Positions 20,574 to 59,718 of a stretch of 64,000 nt of DNA are shown in pieces. The stretch comes from Myxococcaceae bacterium (GTDB lineage: Bacteria; Myxococcota; Myxococcia; Myxococcales; Myxococcaceae), in NCBI GenBank assembly GCA_016793095.1, contig JAEUJQ010000009.1, positions 1 to 64,000 on the forward strand. The letters run 5' to 3'. The position numbers were made by a program, and so were the translations under genes. The notes under the pieces are model-generated. The model saw nothing but the letters and a program-made list of their open reading frames with translations, made no database searches and was not told where the DNA came from. Position 1 is the first letter of the stretch. Each line of letters begins with the position of its first letter.

Positions 20574-20635
20574 GCCCCGATGGTAGCGCGTGGAGACACC
20601 AGGAACCTTGCCGTCCTCAAGACGTTGGTGCCGCT

Positions 20636-21015
20636 CGCTCTCAGCGTGCTGAAGGTGGCGGCGAAACTGTCCGGGCGGCGGGTGACCGCAGCCCCAGCCC
20701 GAGGCTCGACGCTACACTCTGGCCGCTCGCGCTCAGCGTGCTGCCCGGGGCGTTGCGAGACGCTCAGCGCTCGGCAGGAACCGGCTCGGAGCTCAGGCTT
20801 GGGCCCGTGGCCGCGGAGCGCGCGCGCTCAGCGTGCCGAAGGTGGCGGCGAAGCTGTCCGGGCGTCGGGTGACCGCAGCCCCAGCCTGAGGCTCAACGCT
20901 CGACACTCTGGCCGCTCGCGCTCAGCGTGCTGCCCGGGGCGTCGCGAGACGCTCAGCGCTCGGCAGGAACCGGCTCGGAGCTCAGGCTTGCGCCCGTGGC
21001 CGCGGCGCGCGCGCG
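20636..21015. repeat. Two-copy ~189-bp tandem duplication carrying a gene 3' end
   Basis: Two direct copies (about 20636-20824 and 20825-21015) with a few substitutions and small indels; offset is 187 bases at the left edge and 189 further right. The right copy contains the last ~20 codons and stop of the minus-strand gene at 20953-21264; the left copy is a noncoding echo of the same end. Short CAGC-GT-GCTG inverted repeats occur in each copy. Confidence 0.9.
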
Positions 21016-21264
21016 CTTGTCGAGGTGCCGCGCCCACGCGGTGCGGATGAGGCCCGCTCCCAGCAGGGTGGGGGTGGCTACCACGCAGAGGGGACACACG
21101 GCTCCGGCCACTGCGCCGAGCACACCGACGGCTCCGATGCCGAGGCCGGCGGTGAGCCACTGCTTGCCCTGCTCCTTCGCGACGCGGCTGTCTCTCATCA
21201 ACTCCGATGGGCTTCGTGAAGACATGTGGTGGAGAGCCCACAACCCCACAAAGAGGTTCAGCAC
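20953..21264 (-). CDS. Small membrane protein with CPLC motif
   Basis: 103 residues from GTG 21264, with GGAAGAGG just upstream; ATG 21225 would give a 90-residue product. The N-terminus is amphipathic. A Gly/Ala/Leu-rich hydrophobic stretch (residues ~38-74) probably forms two short helices around VCPLCVVATPTLLG, where a Cys-Pro-Leu-Cys pair sits at a bend. Such a CPxC pair could bind metal or undergo thiol exchange, but no function is known. The 3' end is duplicated downstream. Confidence 0.65.
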   Translation of the reverse strand: MLNLFVGLWALHHMSSRSPSELMRDSRVAKEQGKQWLTAGLGIGAVGVLGAVAGAVCPLCVVATPTLLGAGLIRTAWARHLDKRARAAATGASLSSEPVPAER

Positions 21265-43851: not shown

Positions 43852-44400
43852 GAGGGGTTCCGCGTCACGTGCGGCCGAGGAGCGCAGGCCGAGCGAAGTC
43901 GACCGGAAACGCGTGAGACGAAGGCGGAAGTGAGAGCGGAGTCGAGGGCTTCGTCACCGCGTCACCTGTGGCCAAGGAGCGCAGGCCGAGCGAAGTCGAC
44001 CGGAAACGCGTGAGACGAAGGCGGAAGTGAGAGCGGAGTCGAGGGGTTCGTCACCGCGTCACCTGCGGCCGAGGAGCGCAGACCGAGCGAAGTCGACCGG
44101 AAACGCGTGAGACGAAGGCGGAAGTGAGAGCGGAGTCGAAGGCTTCGTCACCGCGTCACCTGCGGCCGAGGAGCGCAGGCCGAGCGAAGTCGACCGGAAA
44201 CGCGTGAGACGAAGGCGGAAGTGAGAGCCGAGTCGAGGGGTTCGTCACCGCGTCACCTGCGGCCGAGGAGCGCAGGCCGAGCGAAGTCGAACCGGAAACG
44301 CGTGAGACGAAGGCGGAAGTGAGAGCGGAGTCGAGGGGTTCGTCACCGCGTCACCTGCGGCCGAGGAGCGCAGGCCGAGCGAAGTCGAACCGGAATCGCG
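43852..44400. repeat. 97-bp tandem repeat, six copies
   Basis: Copies begin near 43852, 43944, 44041, 44138, 44235 and 44333; spacing is 97 or 98 bases except the first (92, missing five bases), and the sixth is incomplete. Copies differ at only a few positions. Each carries GTCGAC and ACGCGT (one A insertion breaks GTCGAC in the last two). 97 is not a multiple of three and no long shared frame exists, so it is noncoding. Confidence 0.95.
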
Positions 44401-50960: not shown

Positions 50961-52505
50961 ATGGGCATTCCCTTCGGCCGCTACGAGTTGCTCCGCAAGA
51001 TCGCCGCCGGCGGCATGGGGCAGGTGTTGCTCGCGCGGAAGGGCGCCGAGGGCTTCGAGAAGCTCGTCGTCATCAAGCGCATCCTCCCGCACCTGGTCGA
51101 GGATGAAGAGTTCTTCACCATGTTCATCGACGAGGCGAAGATCACCATGCGCCTCGACCACCCGAACATCGCGCGCATCAACGAGTTCGGGGTCGAGAAC
51201 GGGGTGCACTTCATCGAGATGGAGTACGTCCAGGGCGAAGACGTACGCCGCCTCGACAAGCGCTCGCGGCTCGCCAACACGCCGGTGCCGCTCGGCGTCA
51301 TCCTGCGCATCATCGCGGACGCGGCGGCGGGCCTCGACTTCGCGCACAAGGCGAAGGACTCGAAGGGCAACCCGCTGAACCTCGTGCACCGGGACGTCTC
51401 GCCGCAGAACGTCCTCGTGGGCTTCGACGGCTCGGTGAAGCTCATCGACTTCGGCGTGGCGAAGGCCGCGGGGCGCGCGCAGCACACGGCGACCGGCATC
51501 CTCAAGGGCAAGTTCCCGTACATGTCGCCAGAGCAGGCCGACGGGCTCGACATGGACGGCCGCAGCGACGTCTTCGCGCTCGGCATCGTCCTGTGGGAGT
51601 TGCTGACCGGGAAGCGGCTCTTCAAGGGTGAGAACGACCTGATGACGCAGCGGCTGGTGAAGGCCTGCCAGGTGCCGCCGCCGTCGCAGGTGGAGCCCTC
51701 GCTGCCGCCAGCGCTCGACGCGGTGGTGCTCAAGGCGCTCGCGAAGGAGCCGAAGGACCGCTACGCCGACGCGGCCGCGTTCCGAATGGCGCTCGAGGAC
51801 TTCGCCTTCAAGAACGCCATCCCCGCGTCGAACGCGCACCTCGTCGAGTTCATGCAGGCGCTCTACGCCGAGCGCATCGCGAAGGAAGCCGACCCGCGCT
51901 CGCTCGAAGAGGACTCGGGGCTCACCGACCTCGACGCCGGCGGGCTGCCGAAGAACGCGCAGGGCGCCACCACCATCGACCGCCACAAGCAGGGCGGGCA
52001 GGTCTTCCCGCAGGGCGCCACCACGGGCAAGCACCAGACCGAGGCGGTGCAGAACCCTGCCGGGTCCTCACGCACGGGCCTGTGGTTGGGCCTCGGGCTC
52101 GTCGCGGCCGTCGTCATCGGCGTCGGTGGCTACGTGGTGAAGAGCCGGACGGGCGGCGAGACACCGCAGCCGAACGTGCCCGTCGTGGTCACCCCGCCGA
52201 CGCCGAAGGACCCGGTGAAGGTCGAGCCCCCGCCGCAGGTCATCGAGTACGTCACCTTCACGCTCTCGTCCGAGCCGGTCGGTGCGGAGATCGAGCTCGG
52301 CGGAGACAAGAAGGGCCTCACGCCGCTGGAGCTGAAGCTCGAGAAGTCGAAGCTGCCGGTGCTCTTGAAGCTGACGAAGGACGGCTATGAGGCCTTCCAG
52401 ACGACGCTGACGGACTCGACCGAGCCGTCGGTGGCAGCGACGCTCAAGAAGCGCGCGACCGTGAAGGTCGGCCCGAAGCCCAGCGACATCAAGACGACGC
52501 GTTGA
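50961..52505 (+). CDS. Ser/Thr protein kinase with TM helix and PEGA domain
   Basis: 514 residues. Kinase domain at ~7-270: AAGGMGQVLLAR, Lys in VVIKRIL, Glu in FIDEAK, HRDVSPQN, DFGVAKA, SPEQ. Juxtamembrane linker, helix at ~374-394 (LWLGLGLVAAVVIGVGGYVV), Pro-rich stretch, then a PEGA domain (~432-505, SEPVGAEIELGGDKKGLTP). PEGA domains in kinases are extracytoplasmic, so a sensor role is inferred. The degenerate tandem repeat begins 80 bases after the stop. Confidence 0.94.
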   Translation: MGIPFGRYELLRKIAAGGMGQVLLARKGAEGFEKLVVIKRILPHLVEDEEFFTMFIDEAKITMRLDHPNIARINEFGVENGVHFIEMEYVQGEDVRRLDKRSRLANTPVPLGVILRIIADAAAGLDFAHKAKDSKGNPLNLVHRDVSPQNVLVGFDGSVKLIDFGVAKAAGRAQHTATGILKGKFPYMSPEQADGLDMDGRSDVFALGIVLWELLTGKRLFKGENDLMTQRLVKACQVPPPSQVEPSLPPALDAVVLKALAKEPKDRYADAAAFRMALEDFAFKNAIPASNAHLVEFMQALYAERIAKEADPRSLEEDSGLTDLDAGGLPKNAQGATTIDRHKQGGQVFPQGATTGKHQTEAVQNPAGSSRTGLWLGLGLVAAVVIGVGGYVVKSRTGGETPQPNVPVVVTPPTPKDPVKVEPPPQVIEYVTFTLSSEPVGAEIELGGDKKGLTPLELKLEKSKLPVLLKLTKDGYEAFQTTLTDSTEPSVAATLKKRATVKVGPKPSDIKTTR

Positions 52506-52584: not shown

Positions 52585-52902
52585 GCAGTCGCGGGCGTCG
52601 TGGTGCCGACGAGCTTCGTCTCGACGTCGCGAATCAGCTCGTGCCGTGAACGGAGGCGCTACTTTCGCAGCTTGCGGATCTCGGCGTGCAGTCGCGGGCG
52701 TCGTGCCGACGAGCTTCGTCTCGACGTCGCGAATCAGCTCGTGCCGTGAACGTCGCCGGTGCGCTCGCCGCTACTTTCGCAGCTTGCGGATCTCGGCGCG
52801 CAGTGCCGACGAGCTTCGTCTCGACGTCGCGAACAGCTCGTGCCGTGAACGGCGCCGGTGCGCTCGCCGCTACTTTCGCAGCTTGCGGATCTCGGCGCGC
52901 AG
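52585..52902. repeat. ~100-112-bp tandem copies carrying a gene 3' end
   Basis: Three copies; the anchor GCCGACGAGCTTCGTC occurs at 52605, 52705 and 52805, and CTACTTTCGCAGCTTGCGG at 52659, 52771 and 52870. The last copy is the true 3' end (codons for RAEIRKLRK plus stop) of the minus-strand gene at 52870; the others are noncoding echoes. GACGA-GCT-TCGTC in each copy can fold into a hairpin. Confidence 0.9.
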
Positions 52903-53292
52903 GTCGAGGCGGGTCTGGTCGAGCAGGCGACGCAGCCGGTTCTGCTCCTCGCGCGCGATCTCGAGCTCGCGGCGCGCGCGCACGGCCTCGCGGTCCTTCA
53001 CGTCGAGCTCCTGGTTGGCCCCCACCAGCTCGCGCTTGAAGAGCGCGTTCCGATTCTGCAGCGACACCACCAACGTCACGAGGTCCTCGACTGACAGCTC
53101 CGCGAGCTGACCGCCCGAGGCCGAGGCAGCTTCGTCGAGGACGCTGAGTCGGCGGTGGGCCTCTTCGAGCTGCGCCTCGAGCTCGGACAGCTCCTGCTCG
53201 AGCACGTCGATGGTCTCGACCTCCTCGCGCAGCTGCCGGTTCTCGACCTGGAGCCGCTCGACGAGCGCACGCAGCTCACGGTCCTCGGTCAC
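52870..53292 (-). CDS. Coiled-coil protein downstream of glgX
   Basis: 140 residues from GTG 53292 (GTGA overlap with the glgX stop). Nearly all of it is predicted heptad-type coiled coil (LVERLQVENRQLREEVETID; VLEQELSELEAQLEEAHRRL), with a short hydrophobic break (VEDLVTLVVSLQ) in the middle. Soluble; probably a scaffold or dimerisation protein. Function unknown, though coupling to glgX suggests shared expression. Confidence 0.8.
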   Translation of the reverse strand: MTEDRELRALVERLQVENRQLREEVETIDVLEQELSELEAQLEEAHRRLSVLDEAASASGGQLAELSVEDLVTLVVSLQNRNALFKRELVGANQELDVKDREAVRARRELEIAREEQNRLRRLLDQTRLDLRAEIRKLRK

Positions 53293-55391
53293 GCAGGCGC
53301 TCCAGCGCGCATCGCCAGCACGACGACCGACCGGCCCATGACGACGAAGCGCGCGCCACAGGCGTACTCCTTCCCTTCGAGCTCGAGCGCCGTGTCCAGG
53401 CTCACCTGCCAGCGCGCGCCCCACTGCTTGCCCGGCAGCGTCACCGGCAGGTCGTCCGCCGAGGCGTTCAGGTAGATGAGCAGGCTGTCTCCGACGAGCT
53501 TCCGGCCCTCGGGGTCGCGCGTGCCGATGGCGTCACCGCCGAGGAACCACGCCATGTACTGGCGGGCTGCCTTCCAGTCAGCGGGCTGCATCTCGGCGCC
53601 GTCGGCGTTGAACCAGACGAGGTCGTGGAACTTCGAGTCGTCGAGCGTCTGACCGAGGAAGAAGTTGCGGCGCTGCAGCACGGGCTGGTGGCGGCGGAGC
53701 TCGGCCAGGCGCCTGACGAAGGCGAGGTGCGCGGCGCCCTCGGGGGTCAGCTTCCAGTCGTGCCAGAGCAGCTCGTTGTCCTGGCAGTAGGTGTTGTTGT
53801 TGCCGCGCTGCGTGCGGCCCAGCTCGTCGCCGGCGTTCAGCATCGGCGTGCCGACCGAGAGGAAGAGCGTCGCGAGGAAGTTCCGCTGCTGCCGGGCGCG
53901 CAGGGTGTTGATGGCGGCGTCGGTCGTCTCGCCCTCGACCCCGCAGTTCCACGAGTGGTTGGAGTCGTTGCCGTCCTTGTTGCCCTCGAGGTTCGCGTCG
54001 TTGTGCTTCTTCGAGTAGCTGACGAGGTCGCGCAGGGTGAAGCCGTCGTGCGCGGCGAGGAAGTTGATGCTGGCGGTCGGTCGCCGCCCCGAGAGCTTGA
54101 AGAAGTCGGACGAGCCGGTGAGCCGGTAGCCGAGCTCGGAGGCCTGCCACTGGTCGCCCTTCCAGAAGTGGCGAATCGAGTCGCGGTACCGGTCGTTCCA
54201 CTCGGCGAAGAGCGCGGGGTACTGGCCGAGCCGGTACCCCTCATGGCCGAGGTCCCACGGCTCGGCGATGAGCTTCACGCGCGAGAGCACCGGGTCCTGG
54301 TGAATGGCGGTGAGGAAGGGCGCGTTGGGCTGGAAGTCTCCGTTGCCGGAGCGCGCGAGGGTGGTGGCGAGGTCGAAGCGGAAGCCATCGACGTGGAACT
54401 CCGTCACCCAGTGGCGGAGCGAGTCGAGCACGAGCTTGAGCACCCACGGGTTGCCCAGGTTCAGGCTGTTCCCGCAGCCGGTGAAGTCGCGGTACTTCGA
54501 GCGGTCGGCGTCCTGCAGCCAGTAGGAGCCCCGGTTGTCGAGGCCCTTCCACGACAGCATCGGCCCCAGGTGGTTGCCCTCGCAGGTGTGGTTGGGTGCC
54601 ACGTCGAGGATGACCTCGAGCCCCGCGTGGTGGAGCGCCTTCACCATCGTCTTGAACTCGTGGACCGCTCCCCGACCGGTGGCGGACGCGAAGCGCGGAT
54701 CAGGAGCGAAGAAGCCGAGCGTGTTGTAGCCCCACGCGTTGGTGAGCCCCTTCGCGACGAGGAAGCCCTCGACGACGCTGTGCTGCACGGGCAGCAGCTC
54801 GACGGAGGTGACGCCGATGGTGCGCAGGTGCTCGATGACGGCCGGGTGCGCGAGGCCCAGGTAGGTGCCGCGATGCTCGGGCGGGACCTCGGGGTGCCGG
54901 GCGGTGAGGCCCTTCAGGTACACCTCGTAGATGACGGTACGGCGCCAGATGACCTCGGGCCGCTTCTCGTGGGCCCAATCGAAGTCATCGCGCACCACGA
55001 GGCTGCGGGGCACGAACGGCGCGCTGTCGCGTGGGTCTGGCGCGGCGCCCTGGAATGGAGAGAGCGGCCCGGTGTGGGTCACCTGGCCTTTGAGCGCGCG
55101 GGCGTAGGGGTCCACCAGGAGCTTCGACGGGTTGAAGATGAACCCTTCGCCGGGGTTCCAGGGCCCATGGGCGCGGAAGCCGTAGGCCTGTCCCGGTCGC
55201 AGGCCGGGCACGTAGCCGTGCCAGACGCCGTTGGTGACCTCGGTGAGGGGCGCGCGGTGCTCGACGCCGTCCTCATCGAAGAGACACAGGTCGATGCCCG
55301 TGCCCGAGGAGAGGACCGCGAAGTTGACGCCGTGCCCGTCGAAGGTCGCGCCGAGGGGGTAGGGGACACCGGGTCGGAGTGGGAACGTCAT
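53289..55391 (-). CDS. glgX: Glycogen debranching enzyme GlgX
   Basis: 700 residues from ATG 55391, the first Met before the CBM48 domain; ATG 55457 would add an unlikely N-terminus. CBM48 at ~1-100 (FDGHGVNFAVLSSGTGIDLC), then a GH13 barrel: DVAPNHTCEG, nucleophile Asp in GFRFDLATTL, acid Glu in LIAEPWD, and NFLAAHDGFTL. C-terminal beta domain. It hydrolyses alpha-1,6 branch points of glycogen limit dextrins. Divergent from the repeat-rich lipoprotein. Confidence 0.95.
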   Translation of the reverse strand: MTFPLRPGVPYPLGATFDGHGVNFAVLSSGTGIDLCLFDEDGVEHRAPLTEVTNGVWHGYVPGLRPGQAYGFRAHGPWNPGEGFIFNPSKLLVDPYARALKGQVTHTGPLSPFQGAAPDPRDSAPFVPRSLVVRDDFDWAHEKRPEVIWRRTVIYEVYLKGLTARHPEVPPEHRGTYLGLAHPAVIEHLRTIGVTSVELLPVQHSVVEGFLVAKGLTNAWGYNTLGFFAPDPRFASATGRGAVHEFKTMVKALHHAGLEVILDVAPNHTCEGNHLGPMLSWKGLDNRGSYWLQDADRSKYRDFTGCGNSLNLGNPWVLKLVLDSLRHWVTEFHVDGFRFDLATTLARSGNGDFQPNAPFLTAIHQDPVLSRVKLIAEPWDLGHEGYRLGQYPALFAEWNDRYRDSIRHFWKGDQWQASELGYRLTGSSDFFKLSGRRPTASINFLAAHDGFTLRDLVSYSKKHNDANLEGNKDGNDSNHSWNCGVEGETTDAAINTLRARQQRNFLATLFLSVGTPMLNAGDELGRTQRGNNNTYCQDNELLWHDWKLTPEGAAHLAFVRRLAELRRHQPVLQRRNFFLGQTLDDSKFHDLVWFNADGAEMQPADWKAARQYMAWFLGGDAIGTRDPEGRKLVGDSLLIYLNASADDLPVTLPGKQWGARWQVSLDTALELEGKEYACGARFVVMGRSVVVLAMRAGAPA

Positions 55392-55476
55392 CAGGCCGTC
55401 CAGAGCGTAGCGCGACTGCCGGGCGCTCCGAACTTCGCTTGCACACGGGTGGGCCATGGTGTGTCAGCACGCTGCC

Positions 55477-58464
55477 ATGCGCCTTCTCACCTCCTTCGCC
55501 TTCTCTCTGGTCGTCATTCTCACGGGTTGTGGTCCCTCGACGCCGCCGCCGATGAACGAGTGCTCCGACGGGTGCTTCGCCTCGAGCGGCTCGTGCATCA
55601 AGGCTGCTGATCAGATCGACACCCTGTGTGGCTTGAGCGGTGGCGGCCAGTGTCAGAACTGCGTCTCGCAGGGCCTCGTCTGTCAGAAGGGGTTCGGCTG
55701 TACGCGCGGCTCAACCGGCGGGGGCTCTGCGGCGGGTGGCTCGGCAGGCGGTTCGACGGCGGGCGGCTCTGCGGCAGGCGGTTCTGCGGCAGGCGGTTCT
55801 GCGGCAGGCGGTTCTGCGGCGGGTGGCTCCGCGGCGGGTGGCTCCGCGGCGGGTGGCTCCGCGGCGGGGGGCTCCGCGGCGGGTGGCTCCGCGGCGGGTG
55901 GCGCTGCGGCGGGTGGCGCTGCGGCGGGTGGCGCTGCGGCGGGTGGCGCGGCGGCGGGTGGCGCTGCGGCGGGTGGCGCCGCGGCGGGTGGCGCTGCGGC
56001 GGGTGGCTCCGCGGCGGGCGGCTCCGCGGCGGGTGGCGCTGGTGGCGGCTCAGCCTCGTGCGTGAACCTCTGCTCGGGCACCGTCAGCATCTGCGACTCG
56101 GCGGGCGTGCGGACCTGCACCCTCGACGCGATGACGGGCTGCCGGGTCTTCGGAGCTCCCGTCGCGTGCCCGATGACGCAGAGCTGCAGCGGTGGCTCCT
56201 GCCAGGCGACCTGCACCAACCAGTGCACCCTCAACGCCACCCAGTGCGCCTCGTCGGGTGCGCCGGTGCGCTGCCAGACCCTCTCGAACGGCTGCACGGA
56301 CTGGGTGCTGCAGGCGACGTGCTCGCCGGGCCAGGTGTGCAGCGGCGGCTCGTGCGTCACCTCGTCGACCTGCACCAACCAGTGCACGGTGGGCGCCACG
56401 CGCTGCACGGCGGGAGGTCAGCAGCAGACCTGCGTGACGCTCGCGTCCGGCTGCACCGACTGGTCGTTGCCCATCGCGTGCATGGCGGGCCAGACGTGCT
56501 CGGCGCCAGGGACGACGTGCCGGGTGCCGCAGTGCACGGCTGGTCAGCGTCGCTGCACCCTGTCCGGAGCGCCCGCCGTCGAGACGTGTGATGCGCAGGG
56601 CAACTGGTACGTCACCTCGCAGTGTCCGCAGGCGTGTGCGACGGGCGCGTGCACCGCGTCGGCGGCCTGCAGCGCGGGCACGGTGCGCTGCAACGGCACC
56701 AACATCGAGATCTGCAACGCCTCCGGCACGGCATGGCTCTACAACCAGACCTGCGCGGTCTCGTGCTCGAGCGGCGTCTGCACCGGGCCCTGCACGCCGA
56801 ACCAGAAGCGGTGCAACGGCAATGTGCCAGAGACGTGCAATGCTGGCGGCTCCGCCTGGGTGGCGGCGCAGTCGTGCATGAACGAGTGCTACAACGGCGA
56901 GTGCACGCAGAACGATCTCATCATCGACGGCACGACGCAGACGCTCGAGGGCGACCTCAAGTTCTCGAACAGCGTCATCATCCGCAACCAGGGGCAGCTG
57001 CGGGTCGGCGCGACGGGCGTGCTCAAGCTTCGCGCGCGCACCATCACCGTCGAGAGCAACACCACCATCAACGCGAACGACCAGGGGACGGAGACGCGGG
57101 GTGAGGGCGGCTCGCGGTCGGGCAGTTGCACGAGCTGCAGCTACACCCGGAGCGGCACCTACAACGTCGGGTCGAGCTACGGCACAGCGGGCGCGAGCGG
57201 CTCCTACTTCTCCCCGTACTACTGCTGCTCGAGCTGCACGAACAGCTGCACCATCTCGGGCCCGGCGCCCGGCACCTACGACCAGGACGACGACCTCTCC
57301 ATCAGCATGGGGAGCCAGTACAACGGCTCGACGCGCGGCGGTGGCCTCGTGCAGCTCATCGCCGACACCGTGACGCTCAACGGACAGATCACCGCGAACG
57401 CCACCAACGCCGGCGCTTCAGGCGGTGGCGTGCTCATCGCGGCGAACCAGATCAGCGGCACCGGCGTCATCCAGACCTCGGGCGCGGCGACGTCTCCGAC
57501 GGGCGGCAACGGGCGCGTGAAGCTGCTTCGCGGCACGGCGAACAACTTCTTCAGCGGCAACATCACCGGCAACAGCCGCACCTCGCCGATGCCGGCGCTC
57601 GACCTCGTCTCGGGCAGCCACCCGGATCAGTCGAAGTGGTACAACGACGGCCTCGGCGATTGGTTCCTCGCGTGGAGCCGCCCGTTCCCGAGCCTCACCG
57701 GCTACTACTGGAAGCTCTCGACGTCGGCCTCGACGCTGCCCTCGGCAGCGATGGGCAATGGCACGCTGACCCAGGCGGAGTCCCTGCAGATCCCCGCGGC
57801 CCAGCTCGTCCAGGGCACCAACTACGTGCACCTCGTCTCGGTGGACTCGGCCTTCAACGTGGGCACGGTGAAGGCGACCGCGACGGTGCGGGTGAACACC
57901 GTGCCGCCCAGCATCACCTCGACGAGCCACCCCTCCCAGCGCACCTGGGGCGGCTCGAACGCGCTCTTCCTCTCGTGGACGAACCCGCAGGCGGACTCGA
58001 ACTTCGACGGCTACTACTTCACGCTCGACCGCTACGCGGACACGGTGCCGGCGGCGACGCCGACGAACTTCACCTCGAACAAGCAGGTGCTGCTGGCGAA
58101 CACGCCGGACGGCATCTGGGGCTTCCACGTGGTGAACCGCGACACGCGCGGGGCCACCACGAAGGCCGCGGCGCACTACATCATCTACGTCGGCGCGAAC
58201 CCCGGCTCGGGGAACGTCTCGGGCAGCGTCTTCGACGGTTCGATGGGCAACGCGACGTTGTCCGGCGTGACGCTCACCATCAACCGGGGCTTCTTCTCGC
58301 AGACGACGGCGTCGAACGGCACGTACACCTTCGGCAACACGCTGCCTGCGGGCACCTGGGAGCTGACCGCCTCGAAGACCGGCTACATCTCGCAGACGCA
58401 GATGGTGACGGTGGCGGCGTCGGGCTCGGTGAACCAGAACTTCACGCTGCTGCGGTCACCCTGA
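55477..58464 (+). CDS. Large repeat-rich lipoprotein with carboxypeptidase-regulatory-like end
   Basis: 995 residues from ATG 55477 (ATG 55456 would spoil the signal peptide). Lipobox ILTGC (Cys18), a Cys-rich head, then about 110 residues of SAAGG/AAAGG repeats. Residues ~190-480 are Cys-rich modules (TNQCTLNATQCASSGAPVRC; TNQCTVGATRCTAGGQQQTC), then a beta-helix-like region (NNFFSGNITGN), fibronectin-like segments, and a CarboxypepD_reg-like end (GSVFDGSMGNATLSGVTL). Probably a long surface-exposed structural or adhesive protein. Confidence 0.85.
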   Translation: MRLLTSFAFSLVVILTGCGPSTPPPMNECSDGCFASSGSCIKAADQIDTLCGLSGGGQCQNCVSQGLVCQKGFGCTRGSTGGGSAAGGSAGGSTAGGSAAGGSAAGGSAAGGSAAGGSAAGGSAAGGSAAGGSAAGGSAAGGAAAGGAAAGGAAAGGAAAGGAAAGGAAAGGAAAGGSAAGGSAAGGAGGGSASCVNLCSGTVSICDSAGVRTCTLDAMTGCRVFGAPVACPMTQSCSGGSCQATCTNQCTLNATQCASSGAPVRCQTLSNGCTDWVLQATCSPGQVCSGGSCVTSSTCTNQCTVGATRCTAGGQQQTCVTLASGCTDWSLPIACMAGQTCSAPGTTCRVPQCTAGQRRCTLSGAPAVETCDAQGNWYVTSQCPQACATGACTASAACSAGTVRCNGTNIEICNASGTAWLYNQTCAVSCSSGVCTGPCTPNQKRCNGNVPETCNAGGSAWVAAQSCMNECYNGECTQNDLIIDGTTQTLEGDLKFSNSVIIRNQGQLRVGATGVLKLRARTITVESNTTINANDQGTETRGEGGSRSGSCTSCSYTRSGTYNVGSSYGTAGASGSYFSPYYCCSSCTNSCTISGPAPGTYDQDDDLSISMGSQYNGSTRGGGLVQLIADTVTLNGQITANATNAGASGGGVLIAANQISGTGVIQTSGAATSPTGGNGRVKLLRGTANNFFSGNITGNSRTSPMPALDLVSGSHPDQSKWYNDGLGDWFLAWSRPFPSLTGYYWKLSTSASTLPSAAMGNGTLTQAESLQIPAAQLVQGTNYVHLVSVDSAFNVGTVKATATVRVNTVPPSITSTSHPSQRTWGGSNALFLSWTNPQADSNFDGYYFTLDRYADTVPAATPTNFTSNKQVLLANTPDGIWGFHVVNRDTRGATTKAAAHYIIYVGANPGSGNVSGSVFDGSMGNATLSGVTLTINRGFFSQTTASNGTYTFGNTLPAGTWELTASKTGYISQTQMVTVAASGSVNQNFTLLRSP
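55722..56052 (+). repeat. 15-bp repeat encoding SAAGG/AAAGG
   Basis: About twenty units of GCGGCGGGTGGC-type 15-mers with Ser or Ala at one position; copies are nearly identical and in frame with the lipoprotein. Likely slippage-prone, giving length variation of a flexible linker. Confidence 0.92.
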
Positions 58465-58568
58465 GCATGCGGCGCTTGTGACGGAGCGTCGTCGCGGACC
58501 ATCGGCGACCGTCGCGCATTGTCTGGCGACGGCCTCGCGGTGCGCCGCGTCGGCGGTGGCCATCGCTG

Positions 58569-58760
58569 CTCAGCGACGGCTGCGTCCTGACGCTTCGTCG
58601 GTGGGCACGCTCCTGCGCCGGCGATACTCAGCGACGGCTGCGTCCTGACGTCGGTGGCTTCGCCGGGCCAGGAGCTTGCTCAGCAACGGCTGCGCCCTGA
58701 CGCTTCGTCGGTGGCCATCGCGAGGGGATGTTGCTCAGCGCCGGCTGCGCGGTGTGCGGG
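58569..58760. repeat. 52-58-bp tandem copies carrying a gene 3' end
   Basis: Four degenerate copies starting at 58569, 58627, 58679 and 58734 with the core CTCAGCGACGGCTGCGTCCTG, spaced 58, 52 and 55 bases. The last is the 3' end of the PHP gene including its stop codon (complement of 58735-58737). Confidence 0.85.
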
Positions 58761-59718
58761 CCCGACGCGACGTCGCCGCGCGTCGTCGGACCGGAGGCTT
58801 CAGGGCGCCACCGAGAATGCGCTCGACGGTCGCGCGTGGTGTCCCGGACGGAGGGGGACGGTAGGGCCGCTGCCGCGGGTGCTGGTGGTCGTCGGTCGAC
58901 GCGGTCCAGTGCTTGCCCTTCGCGGTCGCGTACTCGAGGAACTTCGCCGAGACGGTCTCGCTGTGCCGTGAGGTGTAGACCTCGACGCCCTGGGCGTACT
59001 CGAGCACCCGCTCCATGCGTGCCGTGTCGCGAATGCGGTTCGGGTGCGCCACCACGTCGAAGGCGCCGTCGGCGCGAATGGCGTCGATCATCTCCTCGGG
59101 CGACCACGAGAAGAACGCCGGCTGCTCGGTCCAGAAGCGCACGTGGTGGCGGTGGAAGGCGGTGACGATGGGCTCACGGGTGGCGATGCGTGCGCGGGCG
59201 GCCTCCGCCGTCTCGTCGGGGCGGCGCCCCTCGCCCATCAACTGCCCGAGGAAGACGGCCAGGCCGGGGAACTCAGCGGCCGAGAGCCCGTGGAGGGCGT
59301 CGTCGGGGTCGACGGTCTCCCGGTCCTGGGCAGGGAGCGCGTCCATCCAGGCGAGCACGAAGGTGCGCCACGACTCCACGAGGCGCTGGCCGCGCTGGTA
59401 CAGCGTCGTCTTCTCCAGCGCGTCGGACTCGAGCATCGCTGGCGGGAAGTAGGCGAGCACGTGCACCTGCTCGGCGTCGGGCGTGCCGAAGTGAATGAAG
59501 CTGCTCGTCTCCATCGCGGGCACCAGCGTCAGCCCGCGGCGCCGGGCCACCTTCGCCGCCTCGCGCACGCCCGACAGGATGTCGTGGTCGGACAACGCGA
59601 TGACCTCGAGGCCCTCGTCGGCGCGCGCGTTCACGTAGTCGGCGGGCGTCGTGAGGCCGTCGGACAGCCGCGTGTGGCCGTGCAGGTCGGTGCGGACGAA
59701 GTCGCTTCGGCGGGCCAT
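58735..59718 (-). CDS. PHP-domain phosphoesterase
   Basis: 327 residues. Metal-binding PHP motifs: DLHGHTRLSDGLTTP (His residues and Asp), ALSDHDILSG, AMETSS, FHRHHVRF, AHPNRIRD and STDDHQH. The family hydrolyses phosphate esters (histidinol phosphate, nucleoside 3',5'-bisphosphates). The C-terminal Arg-rich tail is unusual and is the part echoed downstream. No signal peptide. Confidence 0.9.
   Translation of the reverse strand: MARRSDFVRTDLHGHTRLSDGLTTPADYVNARADEGLEVIALSDHDILSGVREAAKVARRRGLTLVPAMETSSFIHFGTPDAEQVHVLAYFPPAMLESDALEKTTLYQRGQRLVESWRTFVLAWMDALPAQDRETVDPDDALHGLSAAEFPGLAVFLGQLMGEGRRPDETAEAARARIATREPIVTAFHRHHVRFWTEQPAFFSWSPEEMIDAIRADGAFDVVAHPNRIRDTARMERVLEYAQGVEVYTSRHSETVSAKFLEYATAKGKHWTASTDDHQHPRQRPYRPPPSGTPRATVERILGGALKPPVRRRAATSRRARTPRSRR

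Follow-up and report, generated by a model that had tools for sequence, protein, structure and literature searches.

The window, that is, the whole 64,000-nucleotide stretch analysed here, comprises positions 1-64000 of contig C86 in a myxobacterial draft genome of 8.81 Mb (93 contigs, 98.7% complete). Within it, two minus-strand genes, encoding a coiled-coil protein and a PHP-domain protein, each end in an array of degenerate copies of their own 3' end. The features at the two loci are as follows.

50961..52505, plus strand: Ser/Thr protein kinase with a PEGA domain, the convergent neighbour of array A
52585..52902, minus strand: array A, three tandem copies of about 100-115 bp
52870..53292, minus strand: coiled-coil gene call, 140 aa, whose 3' end is echoed and whose start overlaps the end of glgX
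53289..55391, minus strand: glgX-like glycogen debranching enzyme with CBM48 and alpha-amylase domain, upstream of the coiled-coil gene
55552..58464, plus strand: large Gly/Ser/Ala-repeat, Cys-rich protein with a CarboxypepD_reg-like C-terminal domain, the convergent neighbour of array B
58559..58750, minus strand: array B, four degenerate copies of 51-59 bp with the PHP stop context GCTGAG
58735..59718, minus strand: PHP-domain gene, whose 3' end is echoed

Two gene ends repeated in tandem

The unit of array A consists of the last 33 bp of the coiled-coil gene, including its stop codon, together with downstream sequence. The minus-strand TAG (CTA on the plus strand) recurs at 52659, 52771 and 52870, spaced 112 and 99 bp apart, and the CTA at 52870 is the actual stop of the gene. 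Self-alignment of the array gave 87% identity over 221 columns (224 bits), and the copies differ by few substitutions and by block indels. Apart from one weak 30-bp match elsewhere, array A is confined to this locus in the genome. The echo was absent from the orthologues of the coiled-coil gene in G006, G003 and G004; the gene itself matched no Pfam family.

In array B, CTCAGC (GCTGAG on the minus strand, with the TGA stop inside) occurs at 58569, 58628, 58679 and 58734, with spacings of 59, 51 and 55 bp, and the pieces are 69-79% identical to each other (54-61 bits). The copy at 58734 is the PHP gene's own stop, so that the array takes in just 16 bp of that gene. No second copy of array B was found anywhere in the genome, and the echo was absent from the PHP orthologues in G006, G003 and G002. 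The C-terminal tail of the PHP protein, about 20 residues long and rich in Arg (window 58735-58800), ends in array B and is missing in the G006 and G003 orthologues.

The tandem copies with their minus-strand stop codons, described in an earlier sequence-only reading, proved real. They scored 61-224 bits, whereas no near-tandem self-hit exceeded 33 bits in 317 kb of sequence simulated with matching composition. Neither array was listed by Tandem Repeats Finder at a score of at least 30, presumably because of the indels between copies. The hairpins into which the copies were said to fold turned out to be nothing special. Relative to dinucleotide shuffles, the copies of array A, which has no palindrome, gave folding z-scores of -0.36, +0.35 and +0.90, and the pieces of array B gave +0.13, -1.11 and -0.40. 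When a double unit of array B (110 bp) was folded with G-U pairing off, one phase reached z = -4.2, indicating that this array is partly palindromic.

The gene at 55552-58464 separates glgX from the PHP gene here only; in G006 the two are close neighbours. The nearest named database relatives of the window glgX are Myxococcus/Myxococcaceae metagenome bins. Coding Gly/Ser/Ala-rich linker repeats with units of 15-60 bp are present at window 55716-56041, C34:26822, L061:4963, C14:1-227 and many other loci. Such linker repeats were found genome-wide and in congeners; they also make up the first or last stretch of several draft contigs.

Noncoding arrays at gene ends in the sampled part of the genome

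We scanned 1.61 Mb, or 18% of the 8.8-Mb genome, for near-tandem self-alignments, together with 756 kb of three congeners (all drafts, about 80% identical in protein to the studied genome), 400 kb of two other relatives from the same family or order, and 1.37 Mb of other bacteria. Genes were called in the same samples by a purpose-written hexamer caller, which recovered the expected genes of the window and whose start codons in particular are its own estimates. Coding repeats were dropped by model, and 15 more listed loci (coding repeats and tRNA pairs) were dropped by eye, post hoc.

Of the resulting 40 curated noncoding tandem arrays, 18 spanned a 3' end and another 18 lay inside spacers; three spanned stop/start junctions and one a 5' end only. 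The asymmetry between 3' and 5' ends (18 vs. 1, p = 8e-5) compares with almost equal chances of 3.8% and 3.9%, respectively, for one unit placed at random, and it was still about 10 to 1 among the strongest arrays (at least 80 bits). The suggested recurrence of gene-end echoes was thereby supported in the 18% of the genome covered; extrapolated to all 93 contigs, the count would come to roughly 100 arrays over 3' ends. Array-bearing ends were mostly convergent (13 of 19 vs. 32%). Clear examples of 3'-end arrays include C63:144665 and C14:74740, where a gene end finishing in CTGCCGACCTGA is repeated many times. Two of the stop/start-junction arrays, G000:C9:4656-5104 (about four copies of 122 bp) and C85:172320-172527 (two copies of 100 bp), lie between co-directional neighbours.

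Unit lengths of arrays spanning a 3' end showed no restriction to multiples of three, as expected for noncoding DNA. Those of arrays spanning a 5' end in the raw list were nearly all multiples of three, which marks them as coding repeats. The units of 3'-end arrays were mostly private, being unrelated to other sampled sequence. Copy identities ranged from about 62 to 99%, which, together with the absence of the echoes from orthologues, points to independent, lineage-specific births of different age. Among the substitutions between copies, C/G transversions were the commonest single class, a pattern that GC bias or misalignment can also produce.

Over the 756 kb of congeners, no array covered a 3' end alone (p = 0.0015), so that the difference in density is significant, if imprecise. 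The congener drafts did contain coding arrays. GC-rich controls yielded one such 3'-end array in 659 kb. Within the studied genome, arrays were distributed unevenly over contigs (p = 0.017), and array-rich contigs showed no correlation with gene score or orthologue share.

Within the window itself, where three cases had been counted from the sequence, the scan found four noncoding arrays at or near gene ends, starting at 20632, 43860, 52585 and 58559. Arrays A and B stand as echoes of gene ends; the other two are less clear cases, one lying over a weakly supported gene and one belonging to a dispersed family.

20632..21017, minus strand: two-copy array of 187 bp, 94% identical, covering the 3' end of an 82-aa gene call (20953-21198) that has weak support
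43860..44400, no strand assigned: 97-bp unit in 5.6 copies, in a spacer, a member of dispersed family III and in this unlike arrays A and B

Dispersed repeat families

Dispersed repeats of this genome form at least three families that are nearly private to it; families I and II were compared with the congeners. Match counts may be lower bounds, with 40 candidates scored for each family and tandem neighbours counted separately. Family I is palindromic, about 67-90 bp long and often tandem, with at least 38 matches here and at most one or two weak matches in congeners. Family II is strongly palindromic and about 95 bp long, with at least 36 matches here and one in the congeners, in G002; one copy folds at -77.6 kcal/mol, and three of six sampled copies lie between convergent genes. 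Family III has at least 47 matches in this genome, is tandem at several sites and includes the window array at 43860-44400.

Family I copies: L043:10998-11137 (G000:C86:74998-75137), C63:131104, C14:33939, C14:73470 and others
Family II copies: L065:3271-3449 (G000:C17), C63:60833, C9:38749 and L070:15278

Many sampled copies of families I and II lie at stop codons or 0-30 bp from them, and the upstream gene takes its stop codon from the opening A/GCTGAG of the element in several copies of family I. One 3'-end array, C63:172118, holds family II.

A tolerance model accounts for array positions

To compare the observed positions with those left by selection against gene damage, we cut each array back to one ancestral unit (60-210 bp) and placed it at random, forbidding only damage to genes, to start codons and to the 50 bp upstream of starts. 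Only ancestral spacers no longer than 400 bp entered the model, and 26 arrays were compared. It predicted that 59.2% would lie over 3' ends, and 15 of 26 did (p = 1). Convergent positions were expected for 46% and observed for 11 of 26; divergent positions were expected for 6% and observed for none of the 26. Without the spacer limit an excess near stops was left over, which disappeared once the limit was applied; in the unlimited model the spacer class is inflated by very long spacers in which genes were missed.

The scan for repeats over stop codons proposed in the sequence-only reading, run here on 18% of the genome, therefore has a divided outcome: the excess over random placement is there, and it vanishes under the tolerance filter, so that no mechanism specific to 3' ends is needed. 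Likewise, since the share of convergent positions matches the model, the convergent excess is no sign of a mechanism tied to convergent genes.

These results suggest that the arrays are probably private, minisatellite-like sequences that arose from short tandem duplications and whose position was set by what the genome tolerates. A short duplication (about 60-210 bp) would have one boundary within a gene's final codons and the other beyond the gene, downstream. The first copy would retain the full reading frame and stop codon, leaving the gene intact and adding echoes to the spacer only, so that a duplication at a gene end would be close to neutral. Copies could then multiply further by slippage or unequal exchange and decay through substitutions and small indels. 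Duplications that shift the frame within a gene, cross a start codon or fall in a promoter would be eliminated, presumably by purifying selection, and this filter alone would concentrate what remains at 3' ends and in convergent spacers.

Replication slippage in general is the likely origin of the arrays. Slippage at short homologies is the accepted origin of small variable segments (PMC2884548), and de novo tandem repeats in bacteria likewise arise from it (PMC4169377). We infer the same origin here. In arrays of nearly two copies, exact matches between the two ends of the array were slightly longer than random (p = 0.006), a modest effect among 12 arrays, one of which is a dispersed-family member. 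The best reading is that the duplications are neutral and frequent in this lineage. The excess over the congeners (none in 756 kb) lies outside the reach of the filter and needs either a raised duplication rate or weaker selection. Loss of mismatch repair was considered as a candidate and rejected, as MutS is present, as it is in relatives. Nor is an enrichment of GCTGAGC at array stops predicted by a blind process.

Alternative explanations

This enrichment bears on an alternative that we consider unlikely, in which a lineage-specific mobile or copying process acts at stop codons and the private echoes are by-products or founders of families I and II. GCTGAGC was found at the stop codon of 6 of 19 array-bearing genes vs. 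4.6% (nominal p = 2e-4, for a motif picked post hoc), and the process would fit the abundance of families I and II here and their near absence from congeners, the stop codons supplied by the A/GCTGAG start of family I copies, and the inclusion of family II in array C63:172118. However, GCTGAGC is lacking at 13 of the 19 array stops, and in a search for a shared motif no 6-mer survived correction for 1004 tests. Neither array A nor array B has copies dispersed through the genome, and the array positions are already accounted for by the tolerance model. A RAYT transposase was rejected as the driver because the genome has no Y1/RAYT gene. A slightly more doubtful variant is that a lineage process copies DNA at stop codons without a REP-type transposase, the echoes being its first products and families I-III the few that spread.

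The sequence-only reading had offered two mechanisms of its own. In the first, polymerase would stall at the terminator hairpin after the stop codon, slip and duplicate the gene end. DNA hairpins do promote slippage, and the double unit of array B is palindromic in one phase. Yet hairpin strength at array-bearing 3' ends was that of ordinary gene ends (mean z 0.23 vs. 0.07, p = 0.37), folding of whole units was no better than ordinary either (p = 0.62), and the copies in the window fold like their own shuffles, which makes this mechanism very unlikely. The second, a functional bidirectional 3'-end element such as a terminator or 3'-end stabiliser whose copies are held by selection, would agree with the preference for convergent gene pairs; this preference is, however, the one that the tolerance model produces. 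The arrays share no common sequence and no surplus structure, no relatives of A, B or most other 3'-end arrays turned up in the rest of the genome or sample, the copies are missing at orthologous gene ends, and the window has no Rfam match. We regard such an element as marginally less probable still. False duplication during assembly is scarcely credible, even for a 93-contig draft with coding repeat arrays at the termini of several contigs, given that most copies carry their own substitutions and indels, which assemblers do not invent, and that the congener drafts have coding arrays yet lack 3'-end arrays.

Comparison with known repeat systems

Like bacterial minisatellites (VNTR), small variable segments and RecA-independent tandem duplications (PMC2884548; PMC4169377), the arrays consist of units tens to hundreds of bp long set head to tail, with sequence private to the locus and restriction to a lineage. 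Short homology at the edges may be a further common trait, in view of the weak excess in 12 arrays. Arrays A and B both have copies beyond chance and a unit specific to their locus. Unlike in minisatellites, a large share of the arrays here runs across a stop codon, with the gene end itself as the repeated sequence, and array density is well above that of the sampled congeners.

MIRU of Mycobacterium tuberculosis form one dispersed family of tandem units, 40-100 bp long, with termini that overlap the stop codons of flanking genes. The overlap with stop codons is shared by the arrays described here, whereas A and B each have a private sequence, show no relation to one another or to other arrays, and belong to no single dispersed family; families I-III resemble MIRU more than A and B do.

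The tandem repeats of Borgs offer another likeness, as they form a genome-specific burst of independently formed repeats, some of which begin in the final part of a reading frame (PMC9879509). The likeness extends to noncoding units free of multiples of three; Borg units are, however, perfect and A-rich, while those here are longer, GC-rich and degenerate (PMC9879509). Certain REPs are found no more than 15-20 nt downstream of stop codons (PMC12306157), and family I and II copies also sit at or near stop codons. In contrast to REPs, which have many dispersed copies and form stable palindromic hairpins, the arrays lack both dispersal and consistent palindromes: A and B each occupy a single site, and only B is palindromic, in part. 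Terminators, too, differ from the arrays, whose hairpins are no stronger than those of ordinary gene ends.

Overall, the counts made here give an example of bacterial minisatellites whose placement tolerance alone can explain: a duplication at a 3' end survives because it costs nothing there. The echoes strew stop codons and gene ends through noncoding DNA and may alter the C-terminal tails of proteins. They also turn the many more 3'-end arrays in one species than in its congeners into a testable question.
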